This document shows positions 15,986 to 19,385 of a DNA stretch of 64,000 nucleotides, piece after piece. The stretch comes from Pirellulaceae bacterium. Its GTDB lineage: Bacteria > Planctomycetota > Planctomycetia > Pirellulales > Pirellulaceae. The position numbers were made by a program, and so were the translations under genes. Location of the stretch: contig JAKVCA010000015.1 of assembly GCA_022448315.1 (NCBI GenBank), positions 118,837 through 182,836 of the forward strand. Direction: 5' to 3'. The first letter of the stretch is position 1. Each line of letters starts with the position of its first letter. Below the pieces are notes generated by a model. It did no database searches. It had not been told where the DNA came from and saw only the letters and a list, made by a program, of their open reading frames with translations.

Positions 15986-16960
15986 CTACAGCCGAAATCT
16001 TTGAATTCGATGGTTGTATGAATCCAGAACATAGAGCCTGCCCTCAGAGTCCTGCGCGAGTCCCCATGGTTGATAGAGTTGGCCAGGCTCTTTGCCATTG
16101 GTTCCCCAGGTCCCCAAGACTTCGCCGTCTCGCGTGAACTTCTGAACTCGGTGGTTCCCGTACTCCGCAATATAGACGGAACCATCTTGGCCCAGCACGA
16201 GGTCATACGGGTAACTCAACTGTCCCGGCTCAGTCCCGTAACTCCCCCAGCTCTTGAGTAACTTGGCTTCATCTCCTTTTGCATCAAACACCTGGACGCG
16301 GTGATTGCACGCGTCGACAACCCAAAGGTGATCATTCTGGTCAATGGCCAGATTGTTGGGTCGTTCGAACTGTCCCAGTTCGGTGCCGGAGCCACCCCAC
16401 TGGAAGAGAAACTCGCCCTCGGCAGAAAACTTCTGGATTCGATCGAGTTCACCATACTCGGAAATGTAGCGATTCCCTTTGGAGTCGATCACGATGTCGG
16501 TGACCAAGCCAAACTTTCCGGGTTCAAGACCATAGGTTCCACCCAGGGTCTGGTCCTCAAGAGGCGTTCCATCCGGTCGGTAGTACAGAATTCGATGGTA
16601 GTGGGTATCCGCCACCATCAGGTTACCCTCGGGTGAAATGGTCAGCCCCGTGGGCTTCCCTTGGTAAATCTCAGGTGTGCGCCATAACGCGAGAGACTCG
16701 CCGTCAAGAGTCATGACCTGAATTCGCCCCGTCATGTCGACGACGAAGAGCCGGTCTTCGTCGTCGATCGCAATGGCGCGAGGCTTCTGAAATCGCCCCT
16801 CGCCGATCCCTCGAGAGCCTATGATGTGGTCCGGTTGGCCGGGGTGGCCCTGCGGAACACATCCCATTCCATTAAGCGCTCCCAAAAGGAGGCCCCAAAC
16901 GAGCACGATCGCACTGGAGGGGCGAATATGGCGTTTAGGTTGGGGACATCGGTTCAGCAT
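15986..16960 (-). CDS. NHL-repeat beta-propeller protein, secreted or lipoprotein
   Basis: A protein of 324 residues with a hydrophobic N-terminus (AIVLVWGLLLGALNGMGC) that may be a lipoprotein signal, although GMGC is a weak lipobox. The rest is a run of NHL repeats, each with the pattern F-x-x-P-x-x-hydrophobic-A-x-D and a valine/aspartate-rich strand, for example FQKPRAIAIDDEDRLFVVD, LSYPYDLVLGQDGSVYIAEY and LYQPWGLAQDSEGRLYVLDS. About six repeats fill the length, enough for a closed propeller. NHL propellers bind proteins, peptides or polymers. It is convergent with the Skp-like gene, the two stops being 54 bases apart. Confidence 0.85.
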   Translation of the reverse strand: MLNRCPQPKRHIRPSSAIVLVWGLLLGALNGMGCVPQGHPGQPDHIIGSRGIGEGRFQKPRAIAIDDEDRLFVVDMTGRIQVMTLDGESLALWRTPEIYQGKPTGLTISPEGNLMVADTHYHRILYYRPDGTPLEDQTLGGTYGLEPGKFGLVTDIVIDSKGNRYISEYGELDRIQKFSAEGEFLFQWGGSGTELGQFERPNNLAIDQNDHLWVVDACNHRVQVFDAKGDEAKLLKSWGSYGTEPGQLSYPYDLVLGQDGSVYIAEYGNHRVQKFTRDGEVLGTWGTNGKEPGQLYQPWGLAQDSEGRLYVLDSYNHRIQRFRL

Positions 16961-17106: not shown

Positions 17107-18246
17107 ATGACAGCAGCTGTTATTGATCTTACAAAAGCCGAAGATCCTCGGGACGTGGTTCACCGAACGGTTCAAGCGTTGGCCGAAGGAAAATTGGTTG
17201 TCTTTCCAACCGAGACACTTTACGGTGTGGTGGCGAGTGCGTTGAATACGGGCTCCATCCTTCGGCTCAAGGCGTTATGTGCTGCGAATGGCAAGCTTTC
17301 CGATCCGGAATTAGTGATCAAAAGTGGCGAAGATGCATTGGATTATGTTCCCGATTTGCGTGGAGCAGGTCGAAGGCTCTGTCGAAGGTGCTGGCCAGGT
17401 CCTTTGACCTTTCGGATGGGCGTGGAGCATCCGGAAAGCGTTTTTCGTAGAATCTCTGCGGAAGTGCGTGATTTTGTGGCCCCAGAGGGGGTCGCCAGAT
17501 TGAGAGTTCCTTTTCACGAAATGATCTTGTCCGTTCTTCGATTGACGATCGGCCCTTTGGTCATTTCGGATATTTTACCATCGGGTCAAAATGGGGGGGT
17601 ATGCGACGGCGACGTTTTGGAGTGGATGCAGGAAAGTACAGATCTGGTCCTGAATGCGGGATCGTGCAAGTACGGCCAACCGTCAACGGTTGTTGACGTC
17701 AGCAATGAAGGTTGGACAATTTCCCGTCCGGGTGTCGTCGGTGAGCAGGCCTTGAAACGGTTATCTTCGATGATGATCTTATTGGTATGCACAGGAAACA
17801 CGTGCCGCAGTCCAATGGCGGAAGTGTTGATGAAAAAGCAGATCGCGGATCGCCTCGGCTGCAACGTTGAGGAGGTCGATCAGCACGGGGTGATCGTCGC
17901 TAGCGCAGGGGTTGCGGCAATGCCCGGTGGAAGGCCCTCGAGTGAAGCGGTTCAGGTGATGAGCGGCCGAGGGTTGGATTTAAGTCAACACTTGAGCCAG
18001 CCCATGACCGATCAAATCGCGACACAGGCGGATTTGATTTTGACCATGACGGAACTCCACCGTCGAACGCTCCTCGCACAGTGGCCGGCTTTGGCACCCC
18101 GGACCCACGTGATCCGTCGTGATCAGGGAGACATTTCCGATCCTATCGGCGGTCCCGTTTCAATCTATGAGAAATGTGCCAGTCAAATTAATGACCAACT
18201 GAGTGTCTGGGTGCAAGAACTCGAACTCAAGTCGTCATCGGAGTAG
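17107..18246 (+). CDS. Fusion: YrdC/TsaC-like (Sua5) domain + low-molecular-weight protein phosphatase
   Basis: A 379-residue two-domain protein. Residues 1 to about 215 are YrdC/TsaC-like: KLVVFPTETLYGVVASALN and, later, the domain-ending SRPGVVGEQAL. TsaC makes threonylcarbamoyl-AMP for tRNA t6A. However, the K-x-R that normally follows the first helix was not found (the region reads CAANGKLSDPE), so catalysis may be altered. From residue about 222 comes a low-molecular-weight phosphatase: P-loop C228-T-G-N-T-C-R234-S and the acid loop SDPIGG near 350. The P-loop TGNTCRSPMAE matches YwlE-type protein-arginine phosphatases, where Thr replaces the Ile/Leu of tyrosine phosphatases. rpiB follows 8 bases after the stop. 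In Bacillus subtilis ywlC (Sua5), ywlE and ywlF (rpiB) are separate close neighbours, so this fusion preserves that neighbourhood. Confidence 0.88.
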   Translation: MTAAVIDLTKAEDPRDVVHRTVQALAEGKLVVFPTETLYGVVASALNTGSILRLKALCAANGKLSDPELVIKSGEDALDYVPDLRGAGRRLCRRCWPGPLTFRMGVEHPESVFRRISAEVRDFVAPEGVARLRVPFHEMILSVLRLTIGPLVISDILPSGQNGGVCDGDVLEWMQESTDLVLNAGSCKYGQPSTVVDVSNEGWTISRPGVVGEQALKRLSSMMILLVCTGNTCRSPMAEVLMKKQIADRLGCNVEEVDQHGVIVASAGVAAMPGGRPSSEAVQVMSGRGLDLSQHLSQPMTDQIATQADLILTMTELHRRTLLAQWPALAPRTHVIRRDQGDISDPIGGPVSIYEKCASQINDQLSVWVQELELKSSSE

Positions 18247-18254
18247 GAAAGAAA

Positions 18255-18731
18255 ATGCGGATATCGATCGGTAACGACCATCGTGGAGTTCAATTCAAGC
18301 TGAAGCTTGCTGACTTGCTGAAGCGACTCGGTCACGAGGTTGTCGATGCGGGAACCAATGAATCATCTGCGATTGATTACCCAGATGTTGCCGCGATCGT
18401 TGCGAAACAGGTCGCAGGCCAAGATTCCGACCGAGGTATTTTGATCTGTGGGACTGGCATTGGGATGGCGATTGCCGCGAATAAAGTGCCTGGAATTCGT
18501 GCGACCACCTGCCATGACGAAGTGACGGCTGAAATCTGTCGTCGCCATAACAACGTCAATGTGCTGTGTCTCTCTGCGGATCTGGTTGGCGAGCAGCTGA
18601 TCCAACGACTGGTTGAAGTTTGGCTCAACACCGGCTTCGACGGTGGACGCCACGAACGCCGGATCAAAAAGATCGAAACACTCGAGTCGAATGGTTGCGG
18701 AGAGTCCACCGATTGTCCCCCTTGCGGTTAA
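18255..18731 (+). CDS. rpiB: Ribose-5-phosphate isomerase B
   Basis: Converts ribulose-5-phosphate and ribose-5-phosphate in the pentose-phosphate pathway (or related sugar phosphates). The 158-residue protein starts MRISIGNDHRGVQFK, giving the phosphate-binding NDHRG motif. It holds ILICGTGIGMAIAANK with the catalytic cysteine of the RpiB/LacAB family, and NNVNVLCLSADL. Length matches the family, with about 10 extra residues at the C-terminus (SNGCGESTDCPPCG) ending in a Cys-rich tail that is unusual. It sits 8 bases after the fused YrdC-phosphatase gene and before the mogA-like gene, so it is probably co-transcribed with both. Confidence 0.95.
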   Translation: MRISIGNDHRGVQFKLKLADLLKRLGHEVVDAGTNESSAIDYPDVAAIVAKQVAGQDSDRGILICGTGIGMAIAANKVPGIRATTCHDEVTAEICRRHNNVNVLCLSADLVGEQLIQRLVEVWLNTGFDGGRHERRIKKIETLESNGCGESTDCPPCG

Positions 18732-18848
18732 GCGGGAGGCAGAACACCAAGTTTTCCAGTGACCGATTGGACTCTTCATGAGTTGACTTTGAGTACTGGA
18801 AACCCAACTTCTGGCAACTTGGTTTCTGAAGAAGGAATCTGGAGAGTC

Positions 18849-19385
18849 ATGGAAAAACCGGCACGCATTGGTATCGTCACGGTTTCGGATCGCGCCAGTC
18901 GAGGAGAGTATGAGGATCGGGGTGGCCCGGCAATTCTCGAGTATCTTCAGGAGGTACTCACCTGTTCCTGGGAACCGGTGGCGAGAGTCATCCCTGATGA
19001 AATCGAAGTGGTTTCTTCGACGCTGATCGATCTCTGTGACCGCGAGCACTGTTCGCTGATCGTAACTACCGGAGGGACGGGGCCTGCCATTCGCGACATG
19101 ACGCCGGAGGCCACCGAGGTGGTTTGCACCAAGATGATGCCGGGTTTCGGAGAGTTGATGCGGCAGATTTCCCTGCAATATGTCCCGACTGCCATTCTTT
19201 CACGGCAGACCGCCGGGATCCGCGGCAGTTCCCTGATTGTCAACCTCCCTGGGCAACCCAAGGCGATTGCTCAATGTCTCGATGCCGTCTTCCCAGCGAT
19301 TCCCTACTGCATTGACCTGCTTGAGGGACCTTACTTGACGACCGACGAAAAACGACTTGTGGCCTTTAGGCCAAAGAAGAAATAG
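18849..19385 (+). CDS. mog: MogA/MoaB-like molybdopterin adenylyltransferase
   Basis: A 178-residue cytoplasmic enzyme of molybdenum cofactor synthesis, expected to adenylate molybdopterin before metal insertion. The start RIGIVTVSDRASRGEYEDRG aligns with the first residues of MogA. TTGGTGPAIRDMTPEAT is the conserved loop of the MoCF fold, and GSSLIVNLPGQPKAIAQCL is its C-terminal motif. GTG 18759 would add 30 unconserved residues; ATG 18849, with GGAGAG just upstream, fits the family. No other molybdopterin genes are nearby. Confidence 0.9.
   Translation: MEKPARIGIVTVSDRASRGEYEDRGGPAILEYLQEVLTCSWEPVARVIPDEIEVVSSTLIDLCDREHCSLIVTTGGTGPAIRDMTPEATEVVCTKMMPGFGELMRQISLQYVPTAILSRQTAGIRGSSLIVNLPGQPKAIAQCLDAVFPAIPYCIDLLEGPYLTTDEKRLVAFRPKKK

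Follow-up and report, generated by a model that had tools for sequence, protein, structure and literature searches.

The window, by which we mean the whole 64,000-nucleotide stretch of DNA analyzed, contains a gene encoding 379 amino acids (17107..18246, plus strand) that was identified from its open reading frame and profile matches as a fusion of a degenerate TsaC/YrdC domain and a YwlE-type phosphatase. The TsaC/YrdC domain (Sua5_yciO_yrdC) extends from residue 24 to residue 209 (17176..17733, plus strand), matches PF01300 with 77 bits (cut-off 25.1) and is non-catalytic as judged by its motifs. It is followed by a domain of the LMW-PTP/YwlE arginine-phosphatase type (LMWPc; residues 224-368, 17776..18210, plus strand), with 89 bits on PF01451 (cut-off 23.2). 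The gene for ribose-5-phosphate isomerase B, rpiB (18255..18731, plus strand), starts 8 bases 3′ of the stop codon of the fusion gene, and its product passes both NF004051 (181 bits, cut-off 135) and the NCBIfam model TIGR01120 (159, cut-off 139). With both Pfam domains and the RpiB models above their cut-offs, the original prediction of a YrdC/TsaC domain fused to a YwlE-type phosphatase just upstream of rpiB holds for this locus. In Bacillus, the separate Sua5/TsaC (ywlC) and ywlE genes presumably also adjoin rpiB (ywlF).

Directly after rpiB is a gene for a Mog-type molybdopterin adenylyltransferase (18759-19385, plus strand; NF006932, 280 bits, cut-off 158). On the other side, a gene for an NHL-repeat beta-propeller protein with a signal-like N-terminus (15986-16960, minus strand) is divergent from the fusion gene.

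In an alignment with 88 fusions and 24 Sua5 proteins, the TsaC tetrad of K, R, S and N (from the motifs KxR and SxN) reads C, A, D and L in the window fusion. The place of KxR (residues 58-60; 17278..17286, plus strand) is C-A-A, and that of SxN (residues 155-157; 17569..17577, plus strand) is D-I-L. We considered whether a KxR might be present in another register, and rejected this: a scan of the whole region from residue 1 to residue 215 found no K-x-R or S-x-N string, and one shifted alignment gives NxK. The original prediction was thus right that the YrdC part is missing its KxR, and SxN is lost as well. The motifs PTETLYG, RxP and STVV, which sit in conserved motif regions of the TsaC family, are kept. 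Against the TIGR00057 equivalog model the window domain scored 84.4 bits, under the cut-off of 123.2, whereas the four intact or near-intact fusions that we tested scored 150-170 bits.

The source genome (5.0 Mb, 97% complete) also encodes an intact stand-alone Sua5 at C34:70528-71064. This protein of 334 amino acids contains the motifs KGR and PSAN as well as a Sua5_C domain, and reaches 204 bits on TIGR00057. TsaD and a TsaB-like protein are encoded in the same genome. Because KxR and SxN are both lost, synthesis of threonylcarbamoyl-AMP (TC-AMP), with which formation of the universal tRNA modification t6A begins, has very likely stopped in the window domain. The earlier proposal that the fused domain no longer serves t6A synthesis is very likely correct in light of these losses and of the second, intact Sua5 gene.

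How widely the fusion occurs was a question raised by the original prediction. The window protein finds matches in 369 of the 392 Planctomycetota genomes and, because the matches listed almost all cover both domains, the fusion is present in at least about 150 of the 392. Full-length two-domain relatives in other planctomycetes share 30-50% identity with the window protein, and rpiB follows in the same orientation in 135 of the 160 fusion loci with enough flanking sequence; the fusion is therefore not a product of chance. We could also rule out chance or misassembly of two genes from its recurrence in well over a hundred genomes. Among the matches listed, the named relatives are planctomycetes (one is titled just “bacterium”), and the named carriers include Rhodopirellula rubra, Neorhodopirellula pilleata, a Rubripirellula MAG and many Phycisphaerae. 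One record (L141), titled Candidatus Kuenenia stuttgartiensis, has a degenerate fusion that resembles those of Planctomycetia, and is probably a mislabelled bin.

We compared the state of the tetrad with the presence of a stand-alone Sua5 in 89 genomes taken singly. Stand-alone Sua5 was defined as a PF01300 frame of about 320-660 amino acids other than the fusion, and PF01300 frames from about 740 amino acids upwards were excluded as HypF on the basis of their length. By this definition, 54 genomes were without stand-alone Sua5 (their other PF01300 matches were mostly long HypF-type frames) and 35 had it. All four tetrad residues were kept in 47 out of the 54 fusions from genomes without Sua5, and at least three were kept in 52. 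Of the 35 fusions that coexist with Sua5, 4 kept at least three residues, 31 kept two or fewer, and 24 kept none. The association between tetrad loss and Sua5 presence has a Fisher p of 3e-17 across the 89 genomes, with shared ancestry ignored.

Most of the genomes examined thus have KxR/SxN intact in the fused domain, with no other TsaC found. The loss of KxR therefore stands for the window fusion and fails as a general property of the fusion. Given that the tetrad is kept and that no other TsaC was found in those genomes, the intact fusions are presumably t6A enzymes, and hence bifunctional. The residue before SxN is Pro in 38 out of 94 intact fusions, although these have no SUA5 domain; Pro at this place has been called Sua5-typical (PMC10321239). 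Near relatives of the window protein have Thr or Ser there, as expected of TsaC.

We also built a tree from the phosphatase domain alone. Its best topology requires 9 changes between tetrad lost and tetrad kept, at least four of them on well-supported branches, and Sua5 presence changes 9 times as well. Only four independent pairs are on well-supported branches, which does not suffice for a sign test, and the association is not fully independent of shared ancestry.

Individual genomes sample different stages of this transition. Genome G353, the neighbour of the window in the tree (weak support), has a stand-alone Sua5 and a still intact fusion, and so is in an in-between state. G031 and G219 likewise keep both intact, and these three genomes depart from the association of tetrad loss with Sua5. 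In G361 a remnant of 346 amino acids has few legible TsaC motifs beyond WPG. G307 and G344 (loci L212 and L213) have a bare YwlE-type phosphatase of 173 and 196 amino acids, respectively, directly before rpiB, with Sua5 elsewhere in the genome; these represent the end state, in which the TsaC domain was deleted. From the in-between and end states, we infer the order of Sua5 gain, decay of the fused domain, and deletion.

There are exceptions to this pattern. The tetrad of the fusion in G274 (L030) is KQAA, and no stand-alone Sua5 was found in its assembly, which is rated 99% complete; the named relative L152 has the same KQAA tetrad. In G012, G062 and G313 (L111, L110 and L105), KxS replaces KxR in the sole TsaC/Sua5 found, and these fusions may be active tetrad variants. 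The KxS and KQAA cases may reflect some tolerance of the tetrad to change, or genes absent from the assemblies.

If some change to the tetrad is perhaps tolerated in these sole-TsaC fusions, the fused domain of the window could in principle still make TC-AMP through other catalytic residues, in which case the genome would have two TC-AMP synthases. We regard this as highly improbable, given that the window fusion has lost all four residues rather than some, scores below the TIGR00057 cut-off, which intact fusions exceed, and shares its genome with an intact Sua5.

Despite the loss of its catalytic residues, the YrdC part is maintained, as judged by its dN/dS of 0.04-0.09 in close degenerate pairs with unsaturated synonymous sites (L027/L028, 0.046; L017/L019, 0.039; L025/L026, 0.093; L099/L107, 0.091). 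For the genera in which close pairs exist, these values rule out neutral decay of the domain. When pairs are matched for phosphatase distance, divergence of the YrdC part in degenerate fusions is 1.5-1.6 times that of the phosphatase, and the corresponding ratio in intact fusions is about 0.8-1.0 (1.4 in the closest bin, which has few intact pairs). The degenerate domain is thus under purifying, though relaxed, selection, which could mean a function beyond maintenance of the fold.

Losses in the degenerate set fall mainly on active-site columns, namely K58, R60, T101, S155-A156-N157 and S193 (numbered as in the window protein, with the residue letters of the intact consensus). Those kept are P34, Y39, W96-P97-G98-P99, D183-x-G185 and G209. 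A charged pattern in the N-terminal helix (D13, R15, D16 and H19), together with D79, is common to degenerate fusions and their intact near relatives, and therefore predates the loss of the tetrad; it may help to maintain the fold or the interface to the phosphatase. AlphaFold2, run with 63 relatives, predicted the whole window protein with a pLDDT of 94.8 and a pTM of 0.90.

The original prediction had proposed that the fused domain may bind a nucleotide or RNA to steer the phosphatase. In an extended form of this idea, the degenerate domain is a regulatory module whose old cleft binds ATP, threonine or tRNA and so controls the phosphatase. The low dN/dS after catalytic loss, the retention of PTETLYG, RxP and STVV in the window protein, and the confident predicted fold of the full two-domain chain would all fit such a role. 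However, it is the columns of the old active site that were preferentially lost while the fold motifs WPGP, DxG and G209 stay, and the degenerate domain changes faster than the phosphatase, at a ratio above the value of about 1.0 seen for intact fusions at larger distances. Moreover, the two Sua5-bearing genomes without the TsaC domain (G307 and G344) keep the phosphatase and rpiB, and this deletion weighs against an indispensable role of the dead domain. We therefore consider a regulatory module unlikely, and favor a TsaC half that is mainly structural.

The phosphatase half has a complete catalytic set. The C(X)4CR(S/T) P-loop, read directly as CTGNTCRS (residues 228-235; 17788..17811, plus strand), has its Cys and Arg invariant in all 168 aligned fusions, and the Asp-Pro pair that includes the general acid (residues 345-346; 18139..18144, plus strand) is likewise invariant in 168 of 168. 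Residue 232, at the position known as PX5, is Thr, as in YwlE and PtpB, where Thr was shown to favor phosphoarginine over phosphotyrosine (PMC8001253). Thr occupies this position in 149 of the 168 aligned fusions and in all 61 degenerate ones. The best PDB match of the domain by sequence is YwlE (4.8e-24), and a Foldseek search matched it to 4etn with a TM score, normalized to the target, of 0.90.

The source genome encodes a McsB-type arginine kinase at C85:1245-1844 (239 bits), which passes the NCBIfam “protein arginine kinase” model NF002194 (432 against 385), with a McsA-like gene directly upstream. A McsB-like kinase, which the original prediction had singled out as a gene to look for, is thus present together with McsA, and gives the fused phosphatase a plausible partner in phosphoarginine metabolism. 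Two Clp ATPases with Clp_N repeats are also encoded. McsB-type kinases were detected in 371 of the 392 planctomycete genomes. Because McsB is nearly universal in the phylum, its presence provides no specific link to the fusion. Protein arginine phosphorylation itself, on the evidence of these kinase genes, looks nearly universal in Planctomycetota.

The Pfam and NCBIfam names for the phosphatase domain refer only to LMW tyrosine phosphatase or arsenate reductase families, and so a phosphotyrosine or other phosphoester substrate has to be weighed against phosphoarginine. We think such a substrate improbable. PX5 is Thr in the fused phosphatase, and the closest matches in both sequence and structure are YwlE arginine phosphatases. 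The source genome has its own tyrosine-type LMW-PTP, with Ile at PX5 (CMGNICRSP), and an ArsC-like protein of the LMW-PTP fold, in addition to McsA-McsB.

The protein can be compared with several known systems. With TsaC/Sua5 synthases (COG0009, PF01300, TIGR00057) the fusions share the fold and overall motifs, and intact fusions also share KxR/SxN and pass the equivalog cut-off. The window domain differs in missing the whole tetrad and in scoring under that cut-off, and unlike in Sua5, its C-terminal partner is a phosphatase and not a SUA5 domain. With YwlE and PtpB (LMW-PTP, PF01451) the window protein has in common the CTGNTCRS P-loop, the Thr at PX5, the Asp-Pro pair and the best PDB matches by sequence and fold, but Bacillus YwlE is a single domain, whereas in the window protein a TsaC domain of some 215 residues precedes the phosphatase. 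A YwlE-type LMW-PTP of Thermoanaerobacter tengcongensis (PDB 4egs) belongs to the same phosphatase subfamily, and the molecule name under which it was deposited, RpiB, may point to a link with RpiB in that organism too. In the window, however, the phosphatase is fused to TsaC, and RpiB is encoded by a separate downstream gene. HypF and TobZ also have a TsaC-like domain within a multidomain protein. In both, that domain is joined to a Kae1-like carbamoyl transferase, which uses what the TsaC-like domain produces, whereas the phosphatase in our fusion has no obvious substrate in common with TsaC.

The open-licence papers searched on TsaC/Sua5 evolution give HypF and TobZ as multidomain examples of TsaC, with no mention of a fusion to a phosphatase. 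In the same literature we found no relevant paper that combines TsaC and YwlE or treats McsB in planctomycetes. Both halves belong to known families, and domain databases may already list the TsaC-phosphatase architecture.

In combination, we consider it likely that the window protein descends from a bifunctional TsaC-YwlE ancestor, that its TsaC half was reduced to a folded but non-catalytic appendage once Sua5 had taken over, and that its phosphatase erases McsB marks. For the loss of TC-AMP synthesis, the order of events, the structural role and the phosphoarginine substrate, we infer the following course. The ancestor would have been a planctomycete protein in which a TsaC-type threonylcarbamoyl-AMP synthase was fused to a YwlE-type phosphoarginine phosphatase, encoded next to rpiB. 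In the lineage of the window, a stand-alone Sua5 would then have taken over TC-AMP synthesis for t6A, which is most likely why the fused half lost its catalytic residues: relieved of this duty, the domain could lose the KxR/SxN tetrad. It would no longer catalyze but would still fold together with the phosphatase, in a mainly structural role, and the phosphatase, with its full catalytic set, most likely strips phosphate from arginines marked by McsB.

We know of no common substrate of TsaC and YwlE, and fusion of operon neighbours suffices to explain the origin of the TsaC-YwlE protein. It has also to be asked whether, in planctomycetes, a single bifunctional enzyme couples t6A synthesis to arginine dephosphorylation in function, with the dead TsaC domain, after the Sua5 takeover, sensing ATP, threonine or tRNA and setting the activity of the phosphatase; we find this unlikely.

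If the descent from a bifunctional ancestor is correct, a bifunctional t6A/phosphoarginine enzyme would be widespread in a whole phylum, and arginine phosphorylation, which has been studied mainly in Gram-positives, would be nearly universal in Planctomycetota. The family would also provide a natural series toward a pseudoenzyme, from sole enzyme through redundant enzyme and dead domain to deleted domain, with steps that can each be tested.
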